Origin: Demequina rhizosphaerae | GTDB taxonomy: Bacteria; Actinomycetota; Actinomycetes; Actinomycetales; Demequinaceae | Assembly: GCF_000971255.1 (NCBI RefSeq) | Contig: NZ_BBMC01000009.1 | Location: forward strand, 1-64,000 | DNA: 64,000 bases | Direction: 5' to 3' | Shown: positions 17,061 through 46,488 of the stretch, one piece after another | Layout: each line of letters begins with the position of its first letter | How positions within the stretch are numbered: the stretch's first letter is position 1 | Program-made: the position numbers and the translations under genes | The notes under the pieces: model-generated | The model's input: the letters and a program-made list of their open reading frames with translations, nothing else | Databases searched by the model: none | What the model was told of the DNA's origin: nothing

Positions 17061-17147
17061 GCTTCTCCCCATCCGTTCCTGCGCGCGCCGCCGCTGCGGC
17101 CGCGTACGCGACTGTACCTCGCGCCCGCAGCGCGGCGGGCGCCGGGC

Positions 17148-20986: not shown

Positions 20987-21751
20987 ATGGCAGACCAGGA
21001 CGTCGCCGACGCGACGCTCGCCGCGATGCTCGCGCGGGCCGCGGGCGAGGAGCTGCTGCGGGTGCGCCGCGAGTCGGGCCTGGAGGGCAAGGAGCTGGGC
21101 AACGCCGGCGATGCCGCGGCCCAGGAGGTGCTGGCGGCGCTGCTGGCCGAGCACCGCCCGGACGACGCGGTGCTGTCCGAGGAGGCCAAGGACTCCGCGG
21201 CGCGTCTGAGCGCGGACCGCGTGTGGATCATCGACCCGCTCGACGGCACCCGGGAGTTCTCCGAGGGCCGCGCGGACTGGGCGGTCCACGTCGCGCTGTG
21301 GGAGAGGGGCGAGCTGACGCTGGGCGTCGTCGCGATCCCGGGCGAGGACCTCGTGCTGTCGTCGGCGGACGCCCCCGCGGTGCCCGCGCGCGACGAGTCG
21401 GCGCCGCTGCGCCTGGCCGTGTCGCGCTCGCGCCCGCCGGCCGTGACCGAGCCGGTGCGCGCCGCGCTGGACGCGGAGCTCATGCCGATGGGCTCGGCGG
21501 GCGTGAAGATCGCCGCCGTGGCCCGTGGCCAGGTGGACGCGTACGTCCACGCGGGAGGCCAGTACGAGTGGGACTCCGCGGCTCCGGTCGCGTTCGCCCG
21601 TGCCGCGGGCCTGCACACCTCGCGGGTCGACGGCACCCCCCTCGTCTACAATGACTCGGACCCTTACCTTCCGGACCTGGTCGTGTGCCGTCCGGACCTC
21701 GCGCCGCGGATCCTCGCGGCGATCTCGGACTACACCGACGGAGACTCTTGA
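20987..21751 (+). CDS. cysQ: 3'(2'),5'-bisphosphate nucleotidase CysQ
   Basis: 254 aa, inositol-monophosphatase fold, metal-dependent. Removes the 3'-phosphate of PAP, the by-product of sulfotransferases and PAPS reductase, and can also act on PAPS. Metal-site motifs are EEAKD (about 66), DPLDGTREF (about 82) and a late WDSAAPVAFARAAG. ATG 20987 has a perfect AGGAGG. Its stop overlaps the ATG of cysD (TGATG), so it is the first gene of the sulfate-activation operon. Recycling PAP points to active sulfotransferases. Confidence 0.85.
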   Translation: MADQDVADATLAAMLARAAGEELLRVRRESGLEGKELGNAGDAAAQEVLAALLAEHRPDDAVLSEEAKDSAARLSADRVWIIDPLDGTREFSEGRADWAVHVALWERGELTLGVVAIPGEDLVLSSADAPAVPARDESAPLRLAVSRSRPPAVTEPVRAALDAELMPMGSAGVKIAAVARGQVDAYVHAGGQYEWDSAAPVAFARAAGLHTSRVDGTPLVYNDSDPYLPDLVVCRPDLAPRILAAISDYTDGDS

Positions 21752-22653
21752 TGACGGCGACCTCGTTCAGCCAGCTGGATGCGCTGGAGGCGGAGGCTAT
21801 TCACATCGTGCGCGAGGTTGTCGCGCAGATGGAGCGTCCGGCCCTGCTGTTCTCGGGTGGCAAGGACTCGATCGTCCTGCTGCACATTGCTTTGAAGGCG
21901 TTCGCGCCGGCGCGGCTGCCGATGCCGGTGGTGCACATCGACACGGGCCACAACTTCCCTGAGGTGATCGACTATCGCGACCGGATCGTGGCCGAGCACG
22001 GCCTGAACCTGGTGGTGGGGTCGGTGCAGGAGGCCATCGACAAGGGCACGGTGCGGGAGGAGCCCAACGGCTCGCGCAACCGTATCCAGACGCCGGTGCT
22101 GCTCGACACGATCGAGAAGAACCGTTTCGACGCGGCCATGGGTGGTGCGCGTCGCGACGAGGAGAAGGCCCGTGCGAAGGAGCGCGTGTTCTCGTTCCGT
22201 GACGAGTTCGGCCAGTGGGATCCGCGCAACCAGCGTCCCGAGCTGTGGAGCCTGTACAACGGCCGGGTGCACATGGGCGAGTCGATCCGTGTGTTCCCGC
22301 TGTCCAACTGGACCGAGCTGGACATCTGGGACTACATCAACTCCCGCGGCATCGAGGTGCCGTCGATCTACATGGCGCACGAGCGTGACGTGTTCCACCG
22401 TGACGGCATGTGGATGGCGGCCAACGAGTTCTGCACGCCTCGTGAGGGCGAGATGATCGAGCGGCGCACGGTGCGCTACCGCACCGTCGGCGACGCGACG
22501 CTGACGGCGGCGGTGCTGTCGGACGCGGACACGATCGACAAGATCATCGCGGAGACCGCGGCGACACGACTGACTGAGCGCGGTGCCACGCGCGGCGACG
22601 ACCGGGTGTCGGAGGCCGCGATGGAGGACCGCAAGAAGGAAGGGTACTTCTGA
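21751..22653 (+). CDS. cysD: Sulfate adenylyltransferase subunit 2 (CysD)
   Basis: 300 aa. ATP pyrophosphatase (PP-loop) subunit that forms APS from sulfate and ATP. SGGKDS loop at 35-40, and conserved AAMGGARRDEEKARAKER and FPLSNWTELDIWDYI. The length is normal. ATG 21751 overlaps the cysQ stop, and the stop overlaps the cysN ATG. The 5' half uses more T-ending codons (GTTGTC, TTCTCGGGTGGC) than its neighbours, which may reflect a highly expressed gene or separate ancestry. Confidence 0.95.
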   Translation: MTATSFSQLDALEAEAIHIVREVVAQMERPALLFSGGKDSIVLLHIALKAFAPARLPMPVVHIDTGHNFPEVIDYRDRIVAEHGLNLVVGSVQEAIDKGTVREEPNGSRNRIQTPVLLDTIEKNRFDAAMGGARRDEEKARAKERVFSFRDEFGQWDPRNQRPELWSLYNGRVHMGESIRVFPLSNWTELDIWDYINSRGIEVPSIYMAHERDVFHRDGMWMAANEFCTPREGEMIERRTVRYRTVGDATLTAAVLSDADTIDKIIAETAATRLTERGATRGDDRVSEAAMEDRKKEGYF

Positions 22654-23900
22654 TGGATCTTCTCCGTTTCGCGACCGCGGGTTCGGTCGACGACGGCAAG
22701 TCCACCCTCATCGGCCGTCTGCTGTACGACAGCAAGTCGATCTTCGAGGACCAGCTCGACGCGGTCGAGATGGCCTCCAAGGCGCGCGGCACCGAGTACA
22801 CCGACCTGGCGCTGCTGACCGATGGTCTTCGTGCCGAGCGTGAGCAGGGCATCACCATCGATGTCGCCTACCGCTACTTCGCGACCCCCAAGCGCAAGTT
22901 CATCATCGCGGACACGCCCGGCCACCAGCAGTACACGCGCAACATGGTCACCGGTGCCTCCACCGCGGACCTCGCGATCATCCTGGTCGACGCCCGCAAG
23001 GGCATGACGGAGCAGTCGCGTCGTCACGCCACCATCGCGTCGCTGCTGCGGGTGCCCCACGTGGTCCTCGCGGTCAACAAGATGGACCTGGTGGGCTGGT
23101 CCGAGGAGCGCTTCAACGAGATCTACGACGAGTTCACCACGTTCTCGGCCAAGCTCGACGTGCCCGACCTGACCGCGATCCCGCTGTCGGCGCTGCTGGG
23201 CGACAACGTCGTCGAGCGGTCCGTGAACATGCCCTGGTACGGCGGCGCCTCCCTGATGCACCACCTCGAGCACGTCCACATCGCCTCGGACCGCAACCTT
23301 CAGGACGTGCGCTTCCCCGTCCAGTACGTCATCCGTCCCATGCGCAACGAGGTCCACGACTACCGCGGCTTCGCCGGACAGGTCGCCTCGGGCATCATCA
23401 AGGTCGGCGACGAGGTCATGGCGCTGCCCTCGGGCATGACGTCCAAGGTCGCCGCGATCGACGGCCCGGGCGGCCCCCTCGAGCAGGCCATGCCGCCGAT
23501 GTCGGTCACGCTGCGCCTCGAGGACGAGATCGACGTCTCCCGCGGCGACGTGATCTGCCGCGTGGGCAACCACCCCGAGCCCACCCAGGACCTCGACGCG
23601 ACCATCTGCTGGATGGACTCCGACGCGCTGACCATCGGCCGCAAGCTCGGGATCCTGCACACCACCCGCATGGCCCGCGCCATGGTCAAGGACATCGCCT
23701 ACGAGCTCGACGTCAACACGCTGCACCGCAACACCGACGCCACCGAGCTGAACCTGAACTCCCTGGGCCGGGTCAAGCTGCGCGTCACCAGCCCCCTGCT
23801 GGTCGACGACTACGCCGACAACCGCACCACCGGATCGTTCATCCTCATCGACGAGGCGACCAACCGCACCGTCGGCGCAGGCGTGGTCCGCGAGCACTAG
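22653..23900 (+). CDS. cysN: Sulfate adenylyltransferase subunit 1, GTPase (CysN)
   Basis: 415 aa, elongation-factor-like GTPase that drives APS formation with CysD. G1 GSVDDGKST (10-18), G3 DTPGHQQY, G4 NKMDL. Two beta-barrel domains follow. No CysC kinase domain is fused, unlike NodQ-type proteins; the kinase is a separate gene at 24895. ATG overlaps the cysD stop (TGATG), and the next gene starts directly after the stop with no gap. Confidence 0.95.
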   Translation: MDLLRFATAGSVDDGKSTLIGRLLYDSKSIFEDQLDAVEMASKARGTEYTDLALLTDGLRAEREQGITIDVAYRYFATPKRKFIIADTPGHQQYTRNMVTGASTADLAIILVDARKGMTEQSRRHATIASLLRVPHVVLAVNKMDLVGWSEERFNEIYDEFTTFSAKLDVPDLTAIPLSALLGDNVVERSVNMPWYGGASLMHHLEHVHIASDRNLQDVRFPVQYVIRPMRNEVHDYRGFAGQVASGIIKVGDEVMALPSGMTSKVAAIDGPGGPLEQAMPPMSVTLRLEDEIDVSRGDVICRVGNHPEPTQDLDATICWMDSDALTIGRKLGILHTTRMARAMVKDIAYELDVNTLHRNTDATELNLNSLGRVKLRVTSPLLVDDYADNRTTGSFILIDEATNRTVGAGVVREH

Positions 23901-24893
23901 ATGGACGTAGGACTCATCGCGGCCGCCGCTGCCATCGGCGTGGTGGTCGGCCTGACCGGCATGGGCGGCGGCGCCCTCATGACGCCCACCCTCGTGCTGT
24001 TCTTCGGCATCCCCGCCCCCGTCGCGGTGTCATCCGACATCGTCGCGGCGGCCGCGATGAAGCCCTTCGGCTCCTGGGTCCACATCCGCAACAAGACCGT
24101 CAACTGGCAGCTCGTCCGCCTGCTGGTCTACGGCTCGGTCCCCGCCGCCTTCCTCGGCGTCCTCGTCCAGCACGCCATCGGCGATGTCGAGACCATCGAG
24201 AAGTTCACCAAGGGCGCCCTGGGCGTGGCCCTCATCATCGCCTCCGCCGGCCTGCTGCTGCGCGCCTACCTGCGCCTGCGCGAACGCGCCCGCTCCCGCG
24301 ACGGCTCCGCCCCGCCCCTGCCCAAGGAACGCCCCGACGTCGTCCCCCGCCCCGTCCCCACCATCATCGTCGGCGTCATCGGCGGCGTCATGGTCGGCCT
24401 CACCTCGGTGGGCTCGGGCTCGCTCATCATCATCGCCCTGATGGCCCTCTACCCGGCGCTCAAGGCCTCCCAGCTCGTCGGCACCGACCTCGTCCAGGCC
24501 GTCCCCCTCGTCGTGTCCGCCGCCATCGCCCACCTCATGTTCGGCGACGTCGACTGGACCGTCACCATCCCCGTCATCATCGGCTCCATCCCCGGCACCT
24601 ACCTCGGCGCCCACCTCTCCTCGCGCGTGTCCGGCGGGCTCGTCCGCCGCGCCCTCGCGATGGTGCTGCTCATCTCCGGCCTCAAGATGCTCGGCGTGTC
24701 CAACGAGCTCACCCTCGCCGCCCTCGGCGCCGCCCTCATCGGCGGCACCCTCGCCTGGGGCCTCATCCGCCACCAGCTCGGCTTCCGCTTCTTCATCTGG
24801 CAGGACAAGCGCGCCAAGGCCGCCGCGCAGGCCGCGAAGGAGTCCCCCCAGGTCGCACCCCCCAAGGACCCCGCCCACGACAAGGAGAGCTGA
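23901..24893 (+). CDS. TauE/SafE (DUF81) family transporter, probable sulfate or sulfite carrier
   Basis: 330 aa, about eight transmembrane helices in two repeats: GLTGMGGGALMTPTLVLFF in the first and GLTSVGSGSLIIIAL in the second, the family signatures. A charged cytoplasmic loop (about 125-150) and tail (about 305-330) are present. The ATG directly follows the cysN stop. Members of this family beside cys genes in other Actinobacteria (the corynebacterial CysZ type) are credited with sulfate uptake; sulfite export is the other known role. Its place between APS-forming and APS kinase genes favours sulfate supply. Confidence 0.8.
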   Translation: MDVGLIAAAAAIGVVVGLTGMGGGALMTPTLVLFFGIPAPVAVSSDIVAAAAMKPFGSWVHIRNKTVNWQLVRLLVYGSVPAAFLGVLVQHAIGDVETIEKFTKGALGVALIIASAGLLLRAYLRLRERARSRDGSAPPLPKERPDVVPRPVPTIIVGVIGGVMVGLTSVGSGSLIIIALMALYPALKASQLVGTDLVQAVPLVVSAAIAHLMFGDVDWTVTIPVIIGSIPGTYLGAHLSSRVSGGLVRRALAMVLLISGLKMLGVSNELTLAALGAALIGGTLAWGLIRHQLGFRFFIWQDKRAKAAAQAAKESPQVAPPKDPAHDKES

Positions 24894-24894
24894 C

Positions 24895-26007
24895 GTGCTC
24901 GAGCTCCGCCTCACCCCCCGCCAGCTGAACGAGCTCGAGCTCATGCGCGCCGGCGCGTACGGAGCGGAGCTGCGCTACGAGCTGCCGACGGGCGACGCCC
25001 ACGTCGCGACACTCCTCGTGGGCGACATCGCCGTCCCGGCCGCGATCGAGCTCCTCGACACCGAGGCCACCCCCGTCGCCCGCGTCGACGTCGCCGGCTC
25101 CCACACCACCGGCGCCGGCACCTGGGTCGCGGGAGACGTCACGATGCTGCGCGAGCCCGCGTCCGCCGCGTTCGCGGAGATCCGCCCGCGCGCCTCGCTG
25201 CCGATGCTCGACCACGCGACCCTCGCCCTGGGCAACGACGTCTCCGACCGCGACGACGACATCGTCCTCGTCGACCACGGCGACGTCGAGGCGCTCAGCC
25301 GCGCCGTCACGGCCGCCCGCCGAGCCGACCGCGAGGTCCGCGTCCTGCCCCGCCCCGCGGCCGCCCACCTGGACGCCGCCGCGACGGACGAGCTCCTCAC
25401 CCACCTCACCGAGGTCGTCTTCGCCTCCACCGTCGCCACGCGCCGCCACGCCGGCCGCGCCCGCGGCGCCGGCATGGTGATCCTGCTGTCGGGCCTGTCC
25501 GGCTCGGGCAAGTCGACCATCGCCCGCCAGCTCACCCGCCGCCTGCGGGCCGAGAGCCACCAGCGCGTCACGCTGCTCGACGGCGACGAGGTCCGCGCGA
25601 TGCTGTCCTCGGGTCTGGGCTTCTCCCGCGCCGACCGCGAGCTCAACGTGCGCCGCATCGGCTGGGTCGCCGCCCAGCTCGCCGCGCACGGCGGCATCGC
25701 CGTGTGCGCCCCGATCGCGCCGTACACGTCCATACGCGCCGAGATGCGCGCGATGGCCGAGGAGCACGGCCGCTTCATGCTGGTCCACGTCGCCACCCCC
25801 CTCGAGGTGTGCGAGGCGCGCGACCGCAAGGGCCTCTACGCGAAGGCCCGCGCCGGCGAGATCAAGGAGTTCACCGGCATCTCCGACCCGTACGAGACGC
25901 CGCTCGACGCGGACGTCGTGGTCGGCGACAGCGACGAGTCCGTCGAGGACGCGGCCGAGGCGATCCTCCGGGCCGCGATCCAGCCCGAGTCCAGCTACGT
26001 CATCTGA
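24895..26007 (+). CDS. cysC: Adenylylsulfate kinase with N-terminal extension (CysC)
   Basis: 370 aa. C-terminal 180 residues are APS kinase: Walker A GLSGSGKST at about 200-208, DGDEVR, and the RxDRELNVRRIG region. This makes PAPS from APS and ATP. Residues 1-185 are an extra domain, beginning LTPRQLNELELMRAGAYG, that resembles the N-terminal PUA-like domain of ATP sulfurylases. Its catalytic half is missing, so it may be regulatory. The GTG start is 1 nt after the upstream stop. It is the last gene of the operon; the acyltransferase gene converges 21 bp away. Confidence 0.85.
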   Translation: MLELRLTPRQLNELELMRAGAYGAELRYELPTGDAHVATLLVGDIAVPAAIELLDTEATPVARVDVAGSHTTGAGTWVAGDVTMLREPASAAFAEIRPRASLPMLDHATLALGNDVSDRDDDIVLVDHGDVEALSRAVTAARRADREVRVLPRPAAAHLDAAATDELLTHLTEVVFASTVATRRHAGRARGAGMVILLSGLSGSGKSTIARQLTRRLRAESHQRVTLLDGDEVRAMLSSGLGFSRADRELNVRRIGWVAAQLAAHGGIAVCAPIAPYTSIRAEMRAMAEEHGRFMLVHVATPLEVCEARDRKGLYAKARAGEIKEFTGISDPYETPLDADVVVGDSDESVEDAAEAILRAAIQPESSYVI

Positions 26008-26028: not shown

Positions 26029-28218
26029 TCACGTCCGCGCCGAGAAGGCGGGCATGAGCCGCTCGAGCTGCGGCACCGCGCTGTGCACCCAGGTGCGCGT
26101 GAGGTGGCCCTGGTCGGCGTAGACCATGACGTTGCCCACGACGGGCACGCACGCATCCGCGTCGCAGTACAGGTCGGACAGGTCGATCGCGGTTGCGCGC
26201 TGCACCTGCTCCGCGGCCGCCGCGAGCACGTCGAGCTGGAGGCCCTCCCCGCGCGGGACGGCGCAGCCGGCGCCCGGATCGGTCGAGCCGCCGCGCAGCT
26301 CGCGCTCGACGCACTCGACGTTGTCCGCGAGCGGCACGGGCGCGTCCCGGATCACGTAGACGTCGGAGACGCGGGCCGGCAGGGCGTCGATCGCGGCGCG
26401 GAACGAGTCCTGCGCGTAGGCGCGCTCGTCCGCGCCCGCGGGGGCCGCGAACCGGGTCTCCTGGTACGCCCCCATCACCACCATGGTGATGTCGTCCCGG
26501 CGCGCGATCTCCTCCGCGACGCGCTCGTTGAACGTCGCGCACGTCTCGACCACGCGGCGGTCGAGGGTGCGGTCGGCGGGCGTGAACGGGCACGAGGCGC
26601 GCGCCATCACCACGCCGTGCCAGCCGTGCGCCTTGGCGAGGTCGTCCATCGCCGGCAGCCAGTGGTAGGCGTGCGAGTCGCCCACGAGCGCCACCGTCCC
26701 GCGCGAGTCGGCGCGCGGCACGCCGAACTCGCAGACGTCGAAGTCCCGGCTGCCCTTGCTGCCGAGGCAGTCCTCGGGCGAGTCGAGCTTCGCGGCGGCC
26801 GGCACCGGCACCACCTCGCCCGCGGCGAGCGTCGAGGTGCAGCCTCCGGCCGGGTCCACGGTCGCGGCGCCGATGCACACCACCTGGATCGCCGGGGCCT
26901 CCACCGAGCTGCCGACGCCGGACGGGTCGGCCGTGATGGGCGGCTGCACCGCCGAGCCGGGGGCGATGTCGCTGGCCGCCTGCGCGAGCCGCTGCGACAG
27001 CTCGAGGCTCGACTCGACCTCGCGCTCGACCGTGCTCGACATCCATGCCGCGGCGCCGATCACGACGGCCATGCCGGCCCCCGCGAACGCGAACGTGAGC
27101 CGGGGCCTCCCCTCGATGAGGACGCGCGCGCCGCGCGCGGGGTTCTCGACCCACCGCCAGGTCGCGTACGAGGCGAGGCCGATGCCGACGAGCAGGAGGA
27201 GCTTGTCGGTCGCCTGCAGGTCGCGGTGGAGCGCGTAGGGCGCGATCACGATCGCCGCCCAGTGCCAGAGGTAGATGGAGTAGGACAGCTCGCCGACCGT
27301 CTGGACCGGGGACAGCCGCAGCAGGCCCGACGGCGCGCCGCGCACGTGGTCGCCGTCCGCCCAGAGCACGAGCACGGTGCCCGCCACGGGCAGCAGCGCC
27401 CAGGCGCCGGGGAACGGCGTCGCGCCGTCGATCACCCAGGCGCTCAGGCCGATGAGCGCGAGGCCGGCCCAGGCCGCGACGGCGCGGAGCCGCGCCCGCC
27501 CGACGACGGCGGGCAGCACCGCGAGCAGCGCGCCCGCGCCGAACTCCCACGCGCGCGTGGGGGTGACGAAGTACGCCTGCGCGGGCGACGATGCGGTCCA
27601 CGCGATGGACGTCGCGAAGGAGCCCGCGGTGACGAGGGCGAGCATGGCCGCGATCGCGCGGCGGCGGGCGCCCCAGCGCCGGCCCAGCCACACCGCCAGC
27701 ACGACGAGCAGCGGCCACAGCAGGTAGAACTGCTCCTCCGCGGACAGCGACCAGTAGTGCTGCACCGGCGAGGCCGCGTTGGAGGCCGCGAGGTAGTCGA
27801 CGGAGTCGGCGGCCAGCAGCAGGTTCTCCACGTAGGCCGCCGCCCCGATGACCTCGCGCGCGAACTGCCCCCACAGCGCGCGCGGCACCCACCACGCGAT
27901 CGCGACGAGGACGGCGGCGAGCACGAGCAGCGAGGCCGGCAGCAGGCGCCGGGCGCGCCGCGCCCAGAACCTCGGCAGGCTCACGGTGCCGGTGAGGTCG
28001 ACCTCGCGCAGCAGGTGGGACGTGATGAGGAAGCCCGAGATGACGAAGAAGACGTCGACGCCGATGAAGCCGCCGCCGATGTGCCAGGGCCACAGGTGGT
28101 AGAGCACCACGAGCGCGACCGCGATCGCGCGCAGCCCCTGGATGTCGGCGCGCATCCCGCGCGCACGCCTGGGGGCGGCGGGCTCGACCTCCGGGGCTCG
28201 GGTCACGGTGCTCGTCAT
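26029..28218 (-). CDS. Acyltransferase-3 / SGNH O-acyltransferase (OafA/OafB type)
   Basis: 729 aa. Residues about 20-370 are an acyltransferase-3 membrane domain of about 10 helices with DIQGLRAIAVALVVLYHLWP, GVDVFFVISGFLIT and RFWARRARRLLPA. After a further helix (about 395-415) comes an extracytoplasmic SGNH-like domain with GDSHAYHW and a C-terminal DQGHLT catalytic pair. It moves acyl (usually acetyl) groups across the membrane onto surface sugars. ATG 28218 has TACCAT 7 nt upstream (leaderless); ATG 28227 is the alternative. Its location between PAPS synthesis and glycosyltransferase genes suggests it decorates the same glycan. Confidence 0.85.
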   Translation of the reverse strand: MTSTVTRAPEVEPAAPRRARGMRADIQGLRAIAVALVVLYHLWPWHIGGGFIGVDVFFVISGFLITSHLLREVDLTGTVSLPRFWARRARRLLPASLLVLAAVLVAIAWWVPRALWGQFAREVIGAAAYVENLLLAADSVDYLAASNAASPVQHYWSLSAEEQFYLLWPLLVVLAVWLGRRWGARRRAIAAMLALVTAGSFATSIAWTASSPAQAYFVTPTRAWEFGAGALLAVLPAVVGRARLRAVAAWAGLALIGLSAWVIDGATPFPGAWALLPVAGTVLVLWADGDHVRGAPSGLLRLSPVQTVGELSYSIYLWHWAAIVIAPYALHRDLQATDKLLLLVGIGLASYATWRWVENPARGARVLIEGRPRLTFAFAGAGMAVVIGAAAWMSSTVEREVESSLELSQRLAQAASDIAPGSAVQPPITADPSGVGSSVEAPAIQVVCIGAATVDPAGGCTSTLAAGEVVPVPAAAKLDSPEDCLGSKGSRDFDVCEFGVPRADSRGTVALVGDSHAYHWLPAMDDLAKAHGWHGVVMARASCPFTPADRTLDRRVVETCATFNERVAEEIARRDDITMVVMGAYQETRFAAPAGADERAYAQDSFRAAIDALPARVSDVYVIRDAPVPLADNVECVERELRGGSTDPGAGCAVPRGEGLQLDVLAAAAEQVQRATAIDLSDLYCDADACVPVVGNVMVYADQGHLTRTWVHSAVPQLERLMPAFSART

Positions 28219-28417
28219 CCGGACCATGGTAAAGGCGCGCCGCCGCCTCGCCGTGCGCACGGGGCCCGTGCGTTAGAGTTGGGGCGACCCGCCCGCGCCC
28301 TCGTGGCCGCGGGCCGCGGCGCCACGGGGGCGCGCCGATGCAGCGGTCGCACGGCTCGGTCACCACCTGCCGGAGGTTCCGGGCCGATCGACCTTGTCGC
28401 CCACCCCAGGAGGACCC

Positions 28418-29416
28418 ATGTCGCAGGACCGGTCAGTTTCGGTCATCATCCCTGTCCACAACGGCGCCGACTTCATCGGCACCGCCCTGCAGTCGCTCGA
28501 GCGCCAGGTCGAGGACCGCGAGCGGATGCAGGTCGTCGTCATCGACGACGGCTCGACCGACGGCACGGGCGACATCGTCCGCGAGCACGCCGACCGGCTG
28601 GGCGAGCTGACGGTGGTGCGCAACGAGGACGCGCGGAGCGTCGGCTCGGCTCGCATCCAGGGGCTCGAGGCGGCGAACCGCGACTACATCGCCTTCCTCG
28701 ACGCGGACGACTGGATGGCCCCGGGCCGCCTCGAGCACCTCATGCGCCGCTGCGAGGAGCTCGACGTCGACTTCCTGCGCACGGACCACGTGCGCGCGTT
28801 CGAGAACGGCCAGCCGCGCGAGCTGCACCGCGCGCCGGACGGGCGCCGCGACATGCCCATCCGCACCCGCGACGCGATCCTGCCCGCAAGCTCGGCGTCC
28901 ATGGTCGACTACCCGTTCCCGTGGGCCGGCATCTTCCACCGCCGCCTCGTCGACGACGGCAGGCTCGCGTACGACGAGGGCCTCCACAGCTTCGAGGACC
29001 GCGTCGCGATCTGGCGCCTCGCGCTGACGGACTCGACGTTCGCGGTCGTGGACGCCCCGTGGATCGTCTACCGCCGCGAGGTGACCACCTCCCTCACGCA
29101 GGTGTTCGACGACCGCCAGCTCGCGTTCATCGCGGGCTTCGGCCTCGTCCGCGACCTCGTTCGCGCCGACGACGACCGCCTCCTGTTCGAGCCCAAGATG
29201 ATCCGGCAGTTCCTCGCGATCGCCGCGCACCACGTCTCGCGCCAGCACGGCATGCACATCGCCACCCGCCGGCAGCTCCGGAGCGCCATCACCGACTTCG
29301 CGAGGACGCTCGACGTCGAGCCTTTGCGCGACCAGTGGGAGGCGATCGGCATGACGCGCCGCGCCCAGCTCGGCTCCGCCATCCTGCCCGCGCTCAAGGA
29401 GAAGGCCTCCGCATGA
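28418..29416 (+). CDS. GT2 family glycosyltransferase
   Basis: 332 aa, cytoplasmic GT-A fold. VSVIIPVHNGADFI at the start, DDGSTDGT nucleotide-binding segment, DADDW (DxD-like, about 98). The C-terminal half is helical and typical of capsule-type enzymes. ATG 28418 has AGGAGG upstream, ruling out the ATG 24 nt earlier. The stop overlaps the next gene (ATGA). It adds a sugar from a nucleotide donor; the specificity is unknown. Confidence 0.85.
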   Translation: MSQDRSVSVIIPVHNGADFIGTALQSLERQVEDRERMQVVVIDDGSTDGTGDIVREHADRLGELTVVRNEDARSVGSARIQGLEAANRDYIAFLDADDWMAPGRLEHLMRRCEELDVDFLRTDHVRAFENGQPRELHRAPDGRRDMPIRTRDAILPASSASMVDYPFPWAGIFHRRLVDDGRLAYDEGLHSFEDRVAIWRLALTDSTFAVVDAPWIVYRREVTTSLTQVFDDRQLAFIAGFGLVRDLVRADDDRLLFEPKMIRQFLAIAAHHVSRQHGMHIATRRQLRSAITDFARTLDVEPLRDQWEAIGMTRRAQLGSAILPALKEKASA

Positions 29417-30756
29417 TCCAGCTCACCGCCGTCACGACCCTCTTCGGCGCCGCCTCCGCCGCCGCCGCGATCGACGCGGGGCTCATGGGGGAGCCGGACG
29501 AGCGCGTGCTCGTCATCTCCAACAACGCGCCCATCCCCGAGGTGGTGCCGTCGCTCGCGGAGACGCCGGGCGCCCAGGCGATCCTGTCGCGCTTCGACCG
29601 CGTGGTCGACCTCGGCGAGCTGCTGAGCCCGCAGCAGCCGTCGCGCTGGAAGGTCTTCGCTATCGACGTGCCGATGCAGGAGAAGCTGCTCCGGCAGTAC
29701 TGGGATCTCGGCGACGAGCCCGTCGAGCTGGTGCTCGAGTCCGTGCACGTCCCGCCCGCGGCGACCATCGCCCGGGTGTTCGCGAACGCGCGCATCCGCA
29801 TCCTGTCCGAGGGGCTGATGAGCTACGGGCCCACGCGCGACCCGCAGCCCCACTCCTTCGGCCAGCGTCTCGACGGGATGGTCTACCTCGACCTGGTCGA
29901 GGGCCTCGACCCGCTGCTGCTGTCCGAGCACGGCATCACCTACCACCCGGTCGCGCCCGAGCACTTCCGCGGCCTCATGGAGGAGGTGTGCGACGGCGCG
30001 GGCCTCCCGCGCGTCACCGACGAGGCCCCGGCCGCGCTCGTGCTGGGCCAGTACCTCGCGGCGCTGCGGCTCATCACGCCGGCCGAGGAGTCCGCCATGC
30101 AGGTGCGGATGCTCGAGGCCGCGAAGAGCCTCGGCGCCGAGAAGGTGCTGTTCAAGCCGCACCCCTCTGCGCCGTCCACCAACACCGCCGCGCTCGTCGA
30201 GGCCGCCGCGAAGGCCGGCCTCGCGATCGAGCTCGTCGACCCGCGCCTGTCCGCCGAGGCGATGATGGTCACGCACGACCTCGTCGGCGTCGTCGCCGGG
30301 TTCTCGACCGCGCTCGCTACCGCGCAGCGCATCTTCGGCCTGCCGACCCGCTGCGTCGGGACGGACCTCATGTTCAAGGCGCTCACGCCCTACCAGAACA
30401 GCAACCGCATCCCGCTGACGATCATCGACCTCCTCGACCGCAACCGCGGCAACGGGGACGCCGTGGCGGAGCTGCGACGCCTGACCGTCGCCGTCGCGTA
30501 CACGATGCAGCCCGAGTCGCTGGCGCACCGGCGCGACGACGCGGTCGCGTACCTCGAGCAGGCGCCCGCCGCGATCCGCTCGCGCTACTTCACGCAGGGC
30601 CGCCTCAACAAGCTCGCGCTGCCGGGCGCCGCGGTGCCGCCGGCGGCCGTGCGCGCCGCGAAGGCCGCGCTCGACCGCGTGCCGCCCCAGGTCTCGCAGC
30701 CCACGTACACCTACCTCCGGAAGATCCGCGGCGGGCGCGGCAAGGCCCAGTCGTGA
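29413..30756 (+). CDS. Polysialyltransferase-family-like glycosyltransferase
   Basis: 447 aa, soluble, GT-B-like. The start TAVTTLFGAASAAAAIDAG, the middle ILSEGLMSYGP, and the later VLFKPHPS and VGVVAGFSTALATAQRIFG match the pattern of the alpha-2,8-polysialyltransferase family (POLYST, Pfam PF07388), including the HP motif. Such enzymes polymerise CMP-activated nonulosonic acids in capsules. ATG overlaps the upstream stop (ATGA), and the stop overlaps the sulfotransferase GTG, so the three genes form one unit. The presence of CMP-nonulosonate synthetase and NeuB genes on the facing operon fits this call. Linkage and donor are inferred, not shown. Confidence 0.7.
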   Translation: MIQLTAVTTLFGAASAAAAIDAGLMGEPDERVLVISNNAPIPEVVPSLAETPGAQAILSRFDRVVDLGELLSPQQPSRWKVFAIDVPMQEKLLRQYWDLGDEPVELVLESVHVPPAATIARVFANARIRILSEGLMSYGPTRDPQPHSFGQRLDGMVYLDLVEGLDPLLLSEHGITYHPVAPEHFRGLMEEVCDGAGLPRVTDEAPAALVLGQYLAALRLITPAEESAMQVRMLEAAKSLGAEKVLFKPHPSAPSTNTAALVEAAAKAGLAIELVDPRLSAEAMMVTHDLVGVVAGFSTALATAQRIFGLPTRCVGTDLMFKALTPYQNSNRIPLTIIDLLDRNRGNGDAVAELRRLTVAVAYTMQPESLAHRRDDAVAYLEQAPAAIRSRYFTQGRLNKLALPGAAVPPAAVRAAKAALDRVPPQVSQPTYTYLRKIRGGRGKAQS

Positions 30757-32780
30757 GGCGCCTCCTGGACCGCGTCCGGGGCCGCGGGAGGACCGAGGAC
30801 TTCCCCGTCCCCGTGCTGCTCCACATCGGCATCCCGAAGTCGGCCACGACCGCGCTCCAGAACGGCCTCGCCGGCGCCCGCGAGCAGCTGCAGGAGGCCG
30901 GGATCCTGTACCCCGACCTCGACGGCCGTATCAACCATCACCAGCTGGCGATGCAGCTGCTCGGCCGGCGCCACGCCGCGTGGAACCCCTCCGGGGAGTC
31001 CCGCGAGCATCTCGACCGCCTCATCGAGGAGGCCTCGGCGCCCGGCATCGAGCGCGTGGTGCTGAGCTCGGAGCTCCTCGCCGAGGGCGACCACCGCGAC
31101 GCGCGCCGCGTGCTCTCGCAGCTCGGCCGCGACGTCCACGTGCTCATCACGCTGCGCTCGATCCCCCAGCTGCTGCCCTCGTCGTGGCAGCAGGGCGCGT
31201 CCGCGGGATCGCAGATCCCGTTCGAGGACTGGCTCCACGAGGTGCTGCGCGCACCCGAGCGCCTCGACCTGCGGCCGCTGCAGTCGATGCGCGGCGACGA
31301 CGGCCACAACCTCATCACGCGCTGGGCCTCGCTCGTCGGTGCGCGCAACATCACCATCCTCATCCCGGACCCGGCGGACCGCACCAGCGTGTTCGTCGAG
31401 GCCGAGACGCTGCTGGGCATCGCGCCGGGCACGCTGCCGCAGTTCTCGAGCAACACGTCGCTGTCCTTCACCCAGAGCGAGCTCACCCGCCTCACGGGGG
31501 ACGCGACCAAGGACCGCCTCACGAGCTTCACGCGGGTCCAGCTCATCCAGCTCGGCATGGGCAACGGCATGAAGCGCGGCTCGGGCGACCGCGGCACGCC
31601 GGCGTCGCTGCCCGACTGGGCCGTCGACGCGTCGCAGCGCGCGGCACGCGCCCTCGCGGGAGCGATCACCAAGGCCGGCGTCACCGTGATCGGCGACCTC
31701 GCGGACCTCGAGCTGACGGGCCGCACGAGCTCGGACACGCGCTACGAGGCGCCCACGTCCTTCCCGATCAGCATGGTGACCGACGCCCTCGGCGGCGCGT
31801 TCGACCGCGCACGGCAGGCCCCGTTCGATGTCGACGACGCCGGGCGCGACGTCGACCGTCCGGCCCCCCTGGACCGCCCCGTGACCCCCGCCTCCGGCGA
31901 CGTGACCGTGGCGGCCCTCGCGCCCCACGGCGGCTCCGCCCTCGCGGCCGCGATCGCCGGCGCCTCCGGCCGCCTCGCCCGCGCGGGCGTGACCGCCCCG
32001 GGCGAGGAGCCGACCGGCGCGGCGCTGACCGCGGTCGAGCTGCTCGGCGAGCCCGGACAGGATCTCGCGTCCGACGGCGGCCTCGTGGTCGAGGCGACGT
32101 CCGCCGCGCTCCTGCTGCAGCGGCTGTACCAGGCGCATCTCGTCGCCGGCGGCAAGGACACGTGGCACGAGTTCGCGGCGGGCATCGACCTCGACGCGCT
32201 GGCGGACGAGGCGGCATGGCAGCGCTCCGACCGCACGCTCCTCGCGTGGGCGGAGGGCGCACGCGGCGTCGAGGTCGTCACCGTGGAGGACGACGCCTCG
32301 CTCGCGTCCGCCTGCGCTCGCCTCGAGTCCTCGATCGACGCACCGGACGGCACGCTCGCCGCGCCCGCGCTGCTCGATCCCGAGGCCGCGCTGCTGTCGC
32401 CCGCCCAGCTGGCGCTCCTGCGCGCCTTCAACGAGCGCACGTGGCGCCCGACCCGCGGCGTCCACTACGAGCGGCTCGTGCGCCACGGGCTCGTGTCGTC
32501 GCTCCTGGCCACCGGTGACCGCCACGCGTCCGCGCTGCCCCTCCCGGAGCACCTCCAGGAGTCCGCGGAGCGCTACGACGAGCGCACGCGAGCGCTGCTG
32601 GCACACCTCGGGACCGCCGCGGACGAGACCTTCGGTGGCGCCGCCGGCACCACCGCCGAGACCCAGGACCCGGATGACGCCGATACGGTGTCCGCGACCG
32701 ATGCGGTGGCGGCGGCGCGCGGCATCATCCTCGCCGCGCGGGCGGCCGCCAAGCGCCGCGAGAAGCAGGTCGCCGGCTGA
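30753..32780 (+). CDS. Large sulfotransferase-like protein with C-terminal extension
   Basis: 675 aa. The N-terminal 300 residues resemble sulfotransferases. LLHIGIPKSATTALQNGL (23-40) is the PAPS 5'-phosphosulfate loop (P-K-S-x-T-T), and LITLRSIPQLLPSSWQQG is in the position of the 3'-phosphate motif (R-S). Residues about 330-675 are an Ala-rich region of unknown fold, unusually long for the family; the segment VTVAALAPHGGSALAAAIAGA could be a degenerate second loop. GTG 30753 overlaps the stop of the polysialyltransferase-like gene (GTGA). Likely role: sulfation of the glycan made by the neighbouring transferases, using PAPS from the operon at 21-26 kb. Confidence 0.72.
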   Translation: MRRLLDRVRGRGRTEDFPVPVLLHIGIPKSATTALQNGLAGAREQLQEAGILYPDLDGRINHHQLAMQLLGRRHAAWNPSGESREHLDRLIEEASAPGIERVVLSSELLAEGDHRDARRVLSQLGRDVHVLITLRSIPQLLPSSWQQGASAGSQIPFEDWLHEVLRAPERLDLRPLQSMRGDDGHNLITRWASLVGARNITILIPDPADRTSVFVEAETLLGIAPGTLPQFSSNTSLSFTQSELTRLTGDATKDRLTSFTRVQLIQLGMGNGMKRGSGDRGTPASLPDWAVDASQRAARALAGAITKAGVTVIGDLADLELTGRTSSDTRYEAPTSFPISMVTDALGGAFDRARQAPFDVDDAGRDVDRPAPLDRPVTPASGDVTVAALAPHGGSALAAAIAGASGRLARAGVTAPGEEPTGAALTAVELLGEPGQDLASDGGLVVEATSAALLLQRLYQAHLVAGGKDTWHEFAAGIDLDALADEAAWQRSDRTLLAWAEGARGVEVVTVEDDASLASACARLESSIDAPDGTLAAPALLDPEAALLSPAQLALLRAFNERTWRPTRGVHYERLVRHGLVSSLLATGDRHASALPLPEHLQESAERYDERTRALLAHLGTAADETFGGAAGTTAETQDPDDADTVSATDAVAAARGIILAARAAAKRREKQVAG

Positions 32781-40582: not shown

Positions 40583-41458
40583 TCAGCCGTCGACGCGGCG
40601 GAGCTTGCTCAGCGGGGCGAGCTCGCCCGGGAACACCTTCTTGACGCCGTCGCCCATGGCCTGCTCGATGATGCGGATGTCGCGGCACAGGTTGATGAAG
40701 CCCTTGGGCTCCAGCGACGCGGCGTGGTCCGAGCCCCACATGGTGCGGTCGAGCGTGATGTGACGCTCCACGGCCACGGCGCCGAGCGCGACGGCGGCGA
40801 TCGAGATCTGCAGGCCCGGCTCGTGACCCGAGTAGCCCACCGGCACGCCGTAGCGGTCCTTGAGGGTCTGGATCATGCGGAGGTTGGCCTCCTCCGGGGG
40901 CAGCGGGTAGGTCGAGGTGGCGTGGAGGATGATGAGCTTGTCCTTGCCCAGGGTCTCCACCGCGGTGTCGATCTGCTCGATGGTCGACATGCCGGTCGAC
41001 AGGATGACGGGCTTGCCGGTCTCCTTGATCTTGCGCAGCATGCCGAGGTCCGTCACGGACGCCGAGGCGATCTTGTACGCGACGGTGTCCATGGACTCGA
41101 GGAAGTCGACGCTGGGCTCGTCCCACGGGGAGGCGTACCAGACGACGCCCTTCTCCTTGCAGTACGCGTCGATCTCGGCGTACTCGGCCTGCTCGAACTC
41201 CACCTTGTAGCGGTACTCGAGGTACGTCATCGTGCCCCAGGGCGTCTCGCGCGGGGTCGACTTCATGTGCTCCGGCGTCGCGATGTCCGGCGTGCGCTTC
41301 TGGAACTTCACCGCCTGGGCGCCCGCCTCGACGGCGACGTCGATGAGCTTTTTCGCGATCTCGACCGAACCGTTGTGGTTCAGGCCGATCTCCGCGATCA
41401 CGTAGGTCGGGTGACCGTCACCGACGAGAATGTCGCCGATCTGCACCGCATCCGTCAC
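40583..41458 (-). CDS. neuB: NeuB-type nonulosonic acid synthase without SAF domain
   Basis: 291 aa, TIM barrel. Condenses phosphoenolpyruvate with a 2-acetamido hexose to form a nonulosonic acid (sialic-, legionaminic- or pseudaminic-like). Characteristic IAEIGLNHNGSVEIAKKLI, GAQAVKFQKRTPD, ILSTGMSTIEQID, GYSGHEPG and VERHITLDR are present. The usual C-terminal SAF (antifreeze-like) domain of about 60 residues is missing; the protein ends soon after PGELAPLSKLRRV. GTG 41458 has AGAGGTG upstream. It lies in the operon with the CMP-activating gene. No NeuC or other substrate-making gene is present, so the precise sugar is open. Confidence 0.85.
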   Translation of the reverse strand: MTDAVQIGDILVGDGHPTYVIAEIGLNHNGSVEIAKKLIDVAVEAGAQAVKFQKRTPDIATPEHMKSTPRETPWGTMTYLEYRYKVEFEQAEYAEIDAYCKEKGVVWYASPWDEPSVDFLESMDTVAYKIASASVTDLGMLRKIKETGKPVILSTGMSTIEQIDTAVETLGKDKLIILHATSTYPLPPEEANLRMIQTLKDRYGVPVGYSGHEPGLQISIAAVALGAVAVERHITLDRTMWGSDHAASLEPKGFINLCRDIRIIEQAMGDGVKKVFPGELAPLSKLRRVDG

Positions 41459-41529
41459 TTCAACACCTCTGATTCGTAGTGGTACTGCCAAAGCCAGGCC
41501 GGGCGTCTCCGCCCACTGTCCCCGAAAGT

Positions 41530-42771
41530 CTAACCGCGATTGCCCTGACTGCCGCGCCGGCGCCTCTGCAGGCGGTCGTACGCCGCGAGCGCGGCACGCA
41601 GGGGCGCGAGCGCGGGGCCGTGCCACGAGTCGTCGCCCGCGCCCAGCGCGACGCTGCGACGCCTGAGGCGCTGCGGCGAGCGCATGAGGCCGGCGTGCGG
41701 GTCGCGCATCGTCGCGCCGGGGGCCGAGGCGCCCGCCGCCTCCTGAGCCACCGCCACCCAGTCGCCCTCGGCCTGGAAGTAGTTCGCGTCCATCCACGCC
41801 GTCGCGGGCGCGCGGAAGCGCAGCGCCCGGAGGTCGTCGAGGCCGCCGAAGAGGCCGGAGCCCTCGAACACCAGGTTGATCATCTGCGCGCTGACGCCGA
41901 ACTCGTCCACGACGAGCACGGGCACGTCCGCGGCGATCGCCTCGAGCGCGGCGGTGGAGCTCACCGTGACGAAGCCGGCGCAGTCCCCCAGGTACTCGCG
42001 CAGCGCGCCGTGCGCGAACACGAGGTTGCCCGGGACCTCGCGGCCCGCGGCGAGCTGCTCGAAGCCGTCCGCCTCCTCGTGGGTCTGCGCCTCGCCGGCG
42101 GTGCCCCGCAGCTTGATCACCACGTCGAGCTCGGGATGCGCGCGCGCCACGTCGACCAGGGCGTCGAGCAGCGCGACGCGGTCCTCCCGACGGGCCGGCA
42201 CGAGCGCCTGCGGCGCGAACACGATGCGCGGGCGGTCCGCGCCTCCCACCTCCTGGTCCTCGAGCAGCGAGGCGAGCCCGAGGTGCGCGAGGCGGGCGTC
42301 GGCCGGCAGGTCCGCGAGCATCGCCGTGACGGCCTCGCGCTCCCGCTCCGAGTGGACCACCATGACGTCGCACGCGGCCCGGAGCCGGAGGCCCAGCGCC
42401 GTCGGCGGGAACCAGATCCCGGGGATGCCTGCGACCACCACGTCGGCCGCGCGCTCGCCGCGCAGCTCCTCGAGGAGCAGCAGCTCGATGAGGGGTCCGC
42501 GGCACGCGAGCAGGAGCAGGGCGGGGCGCTCGGCGCGCAGGCGCGCGGCGAGCGCCCGCAGGCCGATCTCGCCCGGATCGGTGTCGAGACGGCCGTCGAT
42601 CGCCGCGGCACGCTGGGCGGTGCTGGGCGTCACCGCGTTGCGCACGACGACGACCTCGACGTCGTACGCGTCCCGCAGGTCCTCCGCGCGCCGGACGGCC
42701 CACTTGAGGTAGGAGTCGGAGTCCGCGACCACGAGGGCGCGCGGACGCGGGGTCGCGGTCGGCTCAGCCAC
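41530..42771 (-). CDS. DUF6716 putative glycosyltransferase
   Basis: 413 aa, cytoplasmic, GT-B-like. The N-terminal RALVVADSDSYLKWAVRRAEDL and the C-terminal FVTVSSTAALEAIAADVPVLVVDEFG are typical of DUF6716 proteins found in actinobacterial nonulosonate clusters. The second motif resembles the donor-binding region of capsule transferases. The catalytic role is unproven. ATG 42771 lies inside the end of the upstream neuA gene (8-nt overlap), so it is co-translated with it; the neuB gene follows after 71 bp. Confidence 0.72.
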   Translation of the reverse strand: MAEPTATPRPRALVVADSDSYLKWAVRRAEDLRDAYDVEVVVVRNAVTPSTAQRAAAIDGRLDTDPGEIGLRALAARLRAERPALLLLACRGPLIELLLLEELRGERAADVVVAGIPGIWFPPTALGLRLRAACDVMVVHSEREREAVTAMLADLPADARLAHLGLASLLEDQEVGGADRPRIVFAPQALVPARREDRVALLDALVDVARAHPELDVVIKLRGTAGEAQTHEEADGFEQLAAGREVPGNLVFAHGALREYLGDCAGFVTVSSTAALEAIAADVPVLVVDEFGVSAQMINLVFEGSGLFGGLDDLRALRFRAPATAWMDANYFQAEGDWVAVAQEAAGASAPGATMRDPHAGLMRSPQRLRRRSVALGAGDDSWHGPALAPLRAALAAYDRLQRRRRGSQGNRG

Positions 42772-43912
42772 GCGCCGCGATGATCGCCTCGGCGAGCTCG
42801 CGCACCGCGCCGCGACCGCCGGGGCGGGTGAGCACGACGCGCGCGACGGCGGCCGCGCGGGGGTGCGCGTCCGCGGGCACGACGGGCCAGCCGACGGCCT
42901 CGAGGCACGGGAGGTCGGGGAGGTCGTTGCCCACGTACGCGACGCGGTCGAGCGGGACGCCCTTCTCCGCGCACCACTGCTCGAGGTAGGGCAGCTTGTC
43001 CTGGACGTCGTGCGAGACCTCGATGCCGAGCTTGCGTGCGCGGGCGGCGACCACGGGGTTCTCCTCGCGCGACAGGATCATCATCGGCAGGCCCGCCTTG
43101 CGCAGCATCGAGATGCCCATGCCGTCGGAGCGGCTCACGGTGACCGACTCGACCCCGTTCTGGTCGACGATCGCGGTGTCCTCGGTGTGGACGCCGTCGA
43201 AGTCCATGACGAGCGCATCGACGTCGACCGGGGCGGGGGTGTCGAGGAGCGACGCGAGCGCGCGCGCCGACTCGAGCTCGTGCACGTCGTCGATCTCGAT
43301 GCCGGTCGCGGCGGGCACCTCGGCGACGCCGACCCGGCCGAAGAAGCGGAAGCCGGAGGCGCGGAAGCCCGCGACATCCATGACGTAGAACGCGCCGGAC
43401 TCCTGGTAGTGAGGCTCGCGGTCCTGGCGGCGGGGGCGGAACGAGTGGTCGTGGTTCACGCCCGTGGCACCGGCCTCGCCGCGCTGCCACAGGAACGCAT
43501 AGGTCTCGAAGGCCGCGAGCATCGAGTCGTGCTCGCCGGCCAGCACCGACGCGACCGCGCCGTCGAGCGCCTCGGCGTGGATGAACGGCGACGTCGCCTG
43601 GAGGAACGCGAGGACCTGGGGCTCGATGCCGCGCGCGGCGAGCGAGTCGAGGCCGTGCAGGAGCGCCGCCTCGGAGGTCGCGAGGTCGCCCGCGATGTCC
43701 GCGGGGCGGTCGATGATCTCGGCGCCGGCCTCGCGGGCGGCGGCGGCGATCGTCGCATCGTCCGTCGACACGAAGACGCCGTCGATCGACGGGGCGGCGA
43801 GGGCGGCCCGCACGGCACGCGCGACGAGCGGGACGCCGCCCACGCGCGCGACGTTCTTGCCGGGCACCCCCTTGGACCCGCCTCGGGCGGGGATGATCGC
43901 GACGGCACGCAT
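42764..43912 (-). CDS. neuA: CMP-nonulosonate synthetase fused to HAD phosphatase (NeuA-like)
   Basis: 382 aa. Residues 1-225: cytidylyltransferase with IIPARGGSKGVPGKN (5-19) and FLQATSPF. It activates nonulosonic acids with CTP. Residues about 230-382: KdsC/NeuA-type HAD phosphatase with DFDGVHTED (nucleophile motif), LSREENPVV and VGNDLPDLPCL (metal aspartates), so the phosphatase half looks intact. It could dephosphorylate a nonulosonate-9-phosphate before or after activation. ATG 43912 has GAGGAGG upstream and lies 1 nt after the preceding stop. Confidence 0.88.
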   Translation of the reverse strand: MRAVAIIPARGGSKGVPGKNVARVGGVPLVARAVRAALAAPSIDGVFVSTDDATIAAAAREAGAEIIDRPADIAGDLATSEAALLHGLDSLAARGIEPQVLAFLQATSPFIHAEALDGAVASVLAGEHDSMLAAFETYAFLWQRGEAGATGVNHDHSFRPRRQDREPHYQESGAFYVMDVAGFRASGFRFFGRVGVAEVPAATGIEIDDVHELESARALASLLDTPAPVDVDALVMDFDGVHTEDTAIVDQNGVESVTVSRSDGMGISMLRKAGLPMMILSREENPVVAARARKLGIEVSHDVQDKLPYLEQWCAEKGVPLDRVAYVGNDLPDLPCLEAVGWPVVPADAHPRAAAVARVVLTRPGGRGAVRELAEAIIAARG

Positions 43913-43913
43913 G

Positions 43914-44879
43914 TCAGTCCTCCTCGGTTGCAGCATCGTCCGCACTCGCAAGGTACGCGAGCGTGGCGCGGAACGTCTCGTCGGCGCGGTCGGTCCACCA
44001 CGCGTCGGGCACGGCGGTGACGTCGAGCACCGCGCCCACCGGAAGTACGCGGGCGAGGGTCGCGCCGGTGCTGGACGGCAGCGAGCGGACCTCCTCGAGG
44101 CCGCGGGCGCTGCCGAGCACGATCTCGGCGGGCAGCCCCGGCTCGACCACGTCGAGGCCCGCGGCGCGCAGCCGCTCGAGCGACGCGCGGTCCTCGCGGC
44201 GGTGCGGCAGGTAGGTGGCCGGACCGTGGGCGGCGGCCCACGCCTCGTAGTCCTCGGTCGCGATGTAGCCGTCGACGGCGAGCGCCGAGCCGAGCACGAC
44301 GACCGGGCGCAGGGCGACGGGCGACCCGCCGTCGAGGGCGCGCAGCCACCCGTAGCGGTTGGGGACGATGCTGGCGCCGGGCACGACGGGCATCGCGCGG
44401 TGGTCGGCGTACGCGGTGAAGAGCGTGACGCGTCCCGCGGCCGAGGCCGCGCGCAGGCGCGAGCCGGTCACCCGGCCCAGCGTCCGCTGCGCGAGCGGCT
44501 CGCGCTGGCCCATGCGGGAGAACTGCTCGGTGCCGGCGAGGACCGCGGCGAGGTGGAGCGCGGCGGAGCCGTCGTCGACCACGACCAGGTCGCGCACGCC
44601 GGTGGCGGCGACCACGGCCCGGAACTGGCCCGAGAACGCGTCGCCCACGAGCCGGCGGGCGGCCCCGCGGAAGCGCGGGTCCGTGGCGGAGGCCGCCTCG
44701 GCAAGCTCGACCCCCGCGGGCAGGTGCGGCTCGAGCCAGCGCGCCGTGTCCGCGAGCTGCGCGACGCCGGTCCGCAGGAGCAGCAGCGACGGCTCGTCGA
44801 GGTGGGTCGCCGCCTCGACCGCGTTGATGAGCTGCAGCGGCGACTCGACCCAGCCGACGCGGCGGGCGGCGGGGCTCAC
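43914..44879 (-). CDS. Sialyltransferase-like protein of the glycan operon
   Basis: 321 aa. N-terminal RVGWVESPLQLINAVEAATH resembles the start of GT52/polysialyltransferase-type enzymes (V-x-S-P-L-Q-x-x-N). There is a mid-protein LVVVDDGSAALHLA, and a C-terminal IVLGSARGLEEVRSLPSSTGATLA that may hold the CMP-donor site. No signal peptide. GTG 44879 overlaps the ABC ATPase stop (GTGA), and the neuA gene follows directly. Likely transfers a CMP-activated nonulosonic acid; confidence in the family is moderate because only short motifs match. Confidence 0.55.
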   Translation of the reverse strand: MSPAARRVGWVESPLQLINAVEAATHLDEPSLLLLRTGVAQLADTARWLEPHLPAGVELAEAASATDPRFRGAARRLVGDAFSGQFRAVVAATGVRDLVVVDDGSAALHLAAVLAGTEQFSRMGQREPLAQRTLGRVTGSRLRAASAAGRVTLFTAYADHRAMPVVPGASIVPNRYGWLRALDGGSPVALRPVVVLGSALAVDGYIATEDYEAWAAAHGPATYLPHRREDRASLERLRAAGLDVVEPGLPAEIVLGSARGLEEVRSLPSSTGATLARVLPVGAVLDVTAVPDAWWTDRADETFRATLAYLASADDAATEED

Positions 44880-46466: not shown

Positions 46467-46488
46467 TCGTCTCCTCGGGGTGGGTGCG

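Follow-up and report, generated by a model that had tools for sequence, protein, structure and literature searches.

A predicted tandem-duplicate sulfotransferase with a degenerate C-terminal copy, encoded beside a polysialyltransferase-type gene in Demequina rhizosphaerae

The gene analysed here occupies positions 30753-32780 (+ strand) of a 64,000-nucleotide stretch of Demequina rhizosphaerae (contig NZ_BBMC01000009.1 of assembly GCF_000971255.1, positions 1 to 64,000; hereafter the window). Its product is probably a tandem-duplicate carbohydrate sulfotransferase dependent on 3'-phosphoadenosine 5'-phosphosulfate (PAPS): judging from sequence and predicted structure, a live N-terminal domain would be joined to a dead C-terminal twin that holds the acceptor, and a nonulosonate polymer would be sulfated. 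The frame starts with GTG and is open for 675 codons, giving the protein of 675 residues announced by the original prediction, with the PKSATT loop at residues 28-33 as described. About 340 residues of unknown type had been proposed behind the sulfotransferase domain. The length was close, the recognisable N-terminal domain stopping near residue 355 with about 320 residues after it, but the tail is best read as a second, degenerate sulfotransferase domain and not as a sequence of unknown type. The two-domain gene is defined by the open frame, by orthologues in four further Demequina genomes and by an AlphaFold2 model.

Cofactor site and fold of the N-terminal domain

The N-terminal domain covers about residues 19-355 (30807-31817, +). 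In the alignment of the 16 two-domain proteins detected, the residues K29, T32, Q36, S105, E107, R135, S143, W145 and Q146 are identical in all 16 sequences. This set includes two features of the superfamily of PAPS-dependent sulfotransferases, on one hand the Lys and Thr of the 5'-phosphosulfate-binding loop (P-loop; K29 and T32 of PKSATT, 30834-30851, +) and, on the other hand, an Arg and a Ser eight residues apart that bind the 3'-phosphate (R135 and S143, in the motif R135-x7-S143-x-W145-Q146; 31155-31190, +).

The full-length AlphaFold2 model (obtained with 6 sequences) has a mean predicted local distance difference test (pLDDT) of 71.4 and a predicted template modelling score (pTM) of 0.75. 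It was compared with solved structures by VIA-align, which takes a second look at the candidates supplied by Foldseek. Among the 50 matches listed, sulfotransferases occupy the first 18 rows, with Z from 9.8 to 5.4, and the first other fold appears at Z 4.9. The top match is the human NDST1 (8cd0; Z 9.8, 227 aligned, 4.3 A), followed by a sulfotransferase of Alicyclobacillus and by heparan 3-O-sulfotransferases; SULTs are also represented, and Stf0 is found at Z 5.4. These matches span mostly the model residues 25-324. The ranking places the N-terminal domain in the sulfotransferase fold, Foldseek alone being weak on this point. The lack of a sulfotransferase fold, which would have spoken against the original assignment, was not observed: the comparison of folds points to a sulfotransferase, in line with the invariant PAPS-site residues and with the PAPS-supply genes next door. 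From these data we infer that the N-terminal domain uses PAPS and that, having kept its cofactor site, it is the presumed catalyst of the protein.

A second, degenerate copy in the C-terminal half

The C-terminal domain covers about residues 383-675 (31899-32777, +) and is supported by profile comparison, by a model of this half alone and by the VIA-align ranking. When the profile of the 16 N-terminal halves was compared with that of the 16 C-terminal halves by hhalign, the two were aligned over 217 columns with a probability of 97.7 and a P of 1.5e-12. This comparison belongs to a set of 16, the profiles being made from three clades and from all sequences. With the columns of the C half reversed, the 16 comparisons gave P values of 0.1 or worse; with 16 unrelated families of the same clusters (18 cluster proteins, of which two with fewer than four relatives were skipped), both halves gave P values of 0.04 or worse. 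A global alignment extended the correspondence to 289 columns (probability 98.7, P 1.4e-15) and left the P-loop of the N-terminal domain unaligned, while the local alignment begins near residue 113. The P-loop being outside these alignments, the loss of its Lys in the C half was judged by inspection.

A hidden Markov model (HMM) built from the C half only matches 8 of the 17 proteins found by the N profile in ten loci outside Demequina, with E values from 1.5e-9 to 6e-17, and misses the other nine. Single-domain proteins are among the matches outside the genus (L082, 6.1e-17; L080, 8.5e-15; L075:11392, 4e-13). Conversely, the N profile matched the C half at an independent E value of 2e-4 or better in five two-domain proteins, the window protein itself being excluded from this set, and gave weaker or no matches in the others. 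Modelled alone from 8 sequences, the C half obtains a pLDDT of 76.5 and a pTM of 0.79. The first 19 rows of its VIA-align comparison are sulfotransferases, with NDST1 as the best (Z 6.1 over 176 residues), and three chains exceed Z 5. Past the P-loop region, the modelled strands and helices of the C half follow the order of the N-terminal domain. In the full model, nothing in the C half corresponds to the strand and helix near SSE105-107; since the C-only model places a strand at this point, with a pLDDT below 50, the loss of this element is not claimed.

The C half is thus best read, on profiles and models, as a kept but degenerate sulfotransferase domain sharing descent with the N-terminal domain. 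A novel domain of unknown type, the earlier description of the tail, was considered and rejected: the profiles, the C-half HMM, the model and the VIA-align ranking all indicate a degenerate duplicate. It could also be supposed that this half, which is Ala-rich by eye, is a disordered or helical tail devoid of any particular fold and that its profile match is an artefact of composition. The lack of a Foldseek match, the fast evolution and the weakest pair of clades would fit with such a tail, which we nevertheless hold to be very improbable, since neither the reversed nor the unrelated-family controls match, the C-only model is ordered, and the C-half HMM recovers sulfotransferases outside the genus.

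Concerning the cofactor site, the residues 449-460 (32097-32132, +) are the degenerate counterpart of R135 to Q146, with Thr449 in place of the Arg and Arg457 in place of the Ser. At the aligned positions, the Arg is present in 0 of 16 sequences and the Ser in 0 of 16; an Arg occupies the Ser143 position in 12/16, and an aromatic residue is found at the W145 counterpart in 16/16. With regard to this pair of residues, the C-terminal domain is a homologue but no functional member of the superfamily. Lacking the cofactor Arg and Ser and, by inspection, the P-loop Lys, it should not bind PAPS. The C half evolves faster than the N half, yet its ratio of nonsynonymous to synonymous substitution rates (dN/dS) remains below 1 in 7/7 pairs (in the pair L003/L004, 0.072 for the N half and 0.41 for the C half). 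This constraint, together with the Arg at the Ser143 position in most sequences, could be taken to mean that both domains are catalytic and that the second has a different PAPS site or uses another donor. We give very little credence to this explanation, given the absence of the Arg135 and Ser143 equivalents from all 16 sequences and of the P-loop Lys by inspection.

Several points weigh against a tandem sulfotransferase acting on a nonulosonate polymer. Activity, PAPS binding and acceptor are predictions from sequence and model. No Pfam or NCBIfam family matches the 675-residue protein. The Pfam families PF00685, PF13469 and PF17784 resemble it through sub-threshold matches of few relatives, namely PF17784 in two of nine relatives (E 0.0051, the best value, and 0.013) and three sulfotransferase models that each match a single one of the 16 two-domain proteins (E 0.12-0.16), but neither these 16 nor the nine other relatives scanned include any that reaches the gathering score of a Pfam sulfotransferase family. 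A search of PDB sequences with E up to 10 returned as sole match an engineered repeat protein (E 0.096), and the 16-row alignment gave no usable match in Pfam or among PDB sequences. As no curated family model matches, the domain was assigned from motif, profile and predicted fold; for the fold, VIA-align and the profiles carry the claim, Foldseek against PDB being unconfident for both models. For the full model it ranks an aldolase first (E 0.13), the highest sulfotransferase being in row 7 (E 0.33), and for the C-only model its best E is 1.1, with nothing useful. Z values of 6-10 count as modest in VIA-align's own note, and for the C half the rows at Z 4.7 and lower do not stand apart from adenylate kinases, which reach 4.0. 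When the profiles are split by clade, the P values of the comparison between halves range from 4.9e-11 to 0.01, the weakest pair being clade C for the N half with clade B for the C half (P 0.01); the match therefore owes its strength to pooling and, on the side of the C half, to clades A and C. Finally, the C half diverges fast, with identities of 38-42% where the N half has 68-69%.

Gene neighbourhood, distribution and acceptor

The gene situated immediately upstream (29413-30756, +) belongs to the POLYST-type, alpha-2,8-polysialyltransferase family (PF07388, E 9.7e-24). As announced by the original prediction, the GTG of the sulfotransferase gene at 30753 overlaps its TGA stop codon (30754-30756), the overlap being of 4 nt. 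The same overlap is found in 5/5 orthologous loci, taking as start codon the nearest one upstream of the match. Upstream of these two genes are found, in order, CysD (ATP sulfurylase small subunit; 21748-22653, +; TIGR02039 over cut-off), CysN (large subunit; 22653-23900, +; TIGR02034 over cut-off), a TauE/TSUP-type permease (23901-24893, +; PF01925, E 2.2e-47), a CysC-type adenosine 5'-phosphosulfate (APS) kinase (24895-26007, +; PF01583, E 3.5e-57 at 193-343), a membrane O-acyltransferase with an SGNH domain (26029-28260, -; PF01757, PF19040), which lies on the opposite strand between CysC and the next gene, and a GT2 glycosyltransferase (28394-29416, +; PF00535, E 1.1e-31). The CysC carries an N-terminal extension of about 190 residues (24895-25464) for which no PDB sequence relative of note was found (best E 0.076); the CysC of the locus L075 has a longer extension, its APS kinase domain being at 256-407.

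Further on, on the minus strand, are located a NeuB-type nonulosonate synthase whose 5' end is approximate (40583-41530; PF03102, E 1.9e-83), a DUF6716 putative glycosyltransferase (41530-42771; PF20471, E 6.1e-110), a cytidine monophosphate (CMP)-sugar synthetase fused to a HAD domain of the KDN-9-phosphatase/KdsC-like type (42764-43951; PF02348, with TIGR03584 and NF058599 scoring under their respective cut-offs) and two genes of a TagH/TagG-type ATP-binding cassette (ABC) exporter (44876-46622; PF00005, PF01061, with the TagH model PRK13546 below cut-off). The HAD fusion points to a sugar of the 3-deoxy-D-glycero-D-galacto-non-2-ulosonic acid (Kdn) type, both NCBIfam matches being below cut-offs. 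By its gene content, this region has the nonulosonate synthase, CMP-sugar synthetase, glycosyltransferases and exporter of a teichulosonic acid cluster. In 5/5 loci (the window and four orthologous loci), the genes follow the order CysD-CysN-permease-CysC-acyltransferase-GT2-POLYST-sulfotransferase and NeuB lies beyond them, the full-length orthologues of the four further Demequina genomes being 45-57% identical. All five loci thus hold GT2 and POLYST, and the clusters free of glycosyltransferases that would have spoken against the original proposal did not emerge.

Relatives were detected in 12 of the 47 genomes of the host family, window genome included, and all 12 are Demequina; one more genome, G014, matched the 16-row profile, was missed by the single-protein search and is kept outside the 12. 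A long C-terminal half could be aligned in 16 of the 29 places found, the other 13 being single-domain proteins of 354-426 residues. PF07388 is present in 9/12 genomes with the protein type and in 12/47 overall (one-sided Fisher 2.8e-5), NeuB in 12/12 and 23/47 (2.6e-5), and a strong CysC in 12/12 and 24/47 (5.2e-5; the 24 are those of 39 matching genomes with a best E below 1e-50); as the genomes share ancestry, these Fisher values overstate the association. In six genomes (G006, G010, G019, G015, G023 and G042), a second two-domain paralogue adjoins NeuB, DUF6716 or NeuA. The window genome gives a single match to the protein and so has no such paralogue in the counterpart region 40583-43951.

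The nonulosonate polymer is inferred as acceptor from gene order: of the original proposal of a sulfotransferase acting on such a polymer, the enzyme part is supported, and the acceptor part by context only, through the POLYST overlap, NeuB, the CMP-sugar synthetase fusion and the exporter. A less probable alternative, although one of some weight, keeps the same two-domain anatomy and proposes another glycan of the cluster as acceptor, for example a pyruvylated polysaccharide made by GT2 and GT8 enzymes, or a glycolipid. GT8 and pyruvyltransferase genes are indeed present in the same cluster, downstream of the sulfotransferase gene on the other strand; three of the 12 genomes with the family (G020, G028 and G042) have no PF07388 gene; and the loci L075 and L076 possess sulfotransferases, CysC, CysD, CysN and acyltransferases with no NeuB match in the 20 kb examined of each. 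The last two observations also count against a nonulosonate acceptor as such, and they leave room for acceptors other than a nonulosonate in parts of the family. Another glycan does not account for the overlap with POLYST in 5/5 orthologues, for the second paralogues placed beside nonulosonate genes or for NeuB in 12/12 genomes, and we retain the nonulosonate polymer as the predicted acceptor in the window.

Relatives of the protein were also searched in two draws of 396 genomes each, the best three candidates per genome being scored. At the level of the order, 31 genomes matched, from 10 of 109 genera; at the level of the phylum, 12 matched. A profile search for the domain pair, proposed with the original prediction, found both halves in 10 of 13 positive Demequina genomes and in 0 of 18 positive genomes outside the genus (order draw), with one borderline both-halves match outside the genus in G111 (model positions 4-577). 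Two changes are required to explain the two-domain form on a tree built from 44 N-type domains, and well-supported branches force both. Clade one contains the POLYST-linked orthologues and the arrays of G028 and G020, and clade two the paralogues beside NeuB genes. A single origin was rejected on account of these two changes; one gain followed by a loss is possible on the tree.

The loci L075 and L076 belong to two congeneric genomes from a different family of the order. Each has a sulfotransferase array within a CysC...CysD-CysN cluster (L075:7888-12780; L076:7194-11607) composed of CysC, a single sulfotransferase, a tandem protein (821 or 643 residues), a single sulfotransferase, an inositol-phosphatase-family gene, probably CysQ-like, CysD and CysN. 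In the 821-residue middle protein of L075, the P-loop Lys is absent from both copies by inspection.

Elsewhere in the window, a second small sulfotransferase-like gene is located at 16353-17072 (-; PF03567, E 0.0027, below cut-off), with copies that are 71-79% identical in L033 and L037 and 38-42% in L079, L080 and L084. At the left end, two open reading frames (ORFs; 1-849 and 965-2179) have identical first 60 residues and appear transposase-like, as does, in the manner of insertion sequences, an ORF near the right end (58893-59771, -); these three assignments come from translations alone.

Proposed function and comparison with known systems

In the proposed pathway, CysD, CysN and CysC would make the PAPS used by the N-terminal domain, while NeuB and the NeuA-HAD fusion would supply a CMP-sugar from which the POLYST-type enzyme and the GT2 would build a nonulosonate polymer of the sialic or Kdn type. 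The N-terminal domain would sulfate this polymer ahead of its export by the TagGH-type transporter. Most likely, the C-terminal domain would be a fixed partner that binds or positions the long anionic acceptor chain, or it would take the place that a second subunit has in a dimer.

NDST1 and the 3-O-sulfotransferases are the best-ranked solved folds for both halves and share the P-loop and the Arg-x7-Ser pattern with the N-terminal domain. The identities are of 8-16%, and the Demequina protein differs from them by its two sulfotransferase domains, one of them degenerate; to our knowledge, the enzymes of the NDST1/3-O-sulfotransferase type have a single one. The PDB sequence matches include no sulfotransferase. 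The bacterial capsule polysialyltransferases share PF07388 with the overlapping upstream gene, but those we know of act in capsule synthesis and have no overlapping sulfotransferase gene.

Among wall polymers, Streptomyces teichulosonic acid is described, in the available text of PMC11481543, as a phosphate-free polymer of Gal and Kdn; that paper on a Kdn-containing wall polymer nowhere contains the word sulfate. The corresponding cluster of S. coelicolor is given as SCO4873-SCO4882 in the accessible part of PMC13011467, and its sialic acid synthase as SCO4881 in that of PMC2367054 or SCO4880 in that of PMC8269224. According to the available portions of PMC2367054, PMC8269224 and PMC2267785, the actinobacterial teichulosonic acid clusters combine, like that of Demequina, a gene of the sialic-acid-synthase type with glycosyltransferases, but CysDNC and sulfotransferases are added in Demequina. 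The deoxyhypusine synthase of trypanosomes, as reported in PMC3663545, likewise retains an inactive copy alongside an active one, except that the Demequina copies are fused in one chain and that an effect of the dead copy on activity is here putative. Sulfotransferases are listed among the classes with possible pseudoenzyme counterparts, with no example in the available text of that review (PMC5106787). In the open literature, we found no report of a tandem, two-domain, inactive or pseudo-sulfotransferase, subscription papers being outside this scope and an earlier description therefore possible; the combination of sulfotransferase and Demequina matched only a gut-microbiota survey, and the open literature on sulfated actinobacterial wall polymers yielded nothing on this protein family.

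We tentatively suggest, as a proposition that is rather doubtful at present, that a live sulfotransferase acting on a nonulosonate wall polymer is assisted by a pseudo-sulfotransferase domain of its own chain, which would hold the acceptor or confer processivity, and that this architecture is new and recurrently evolved. The recurrence, if true, would comprise two separate Demequina clades and the tandem forms of a different family in the order; a degenerate sulfotransferase copy would have been retained in fusion with a live one. A large protein family devoid of Pfam and NCBIfam models would thereby be explained. Gram-positive bacteria would possess a sulfated polymer of the polysialic type, and the presence in Demequina of a cell-surface nonulosonate polymer carrying sulfate would be a directly testable prediction.

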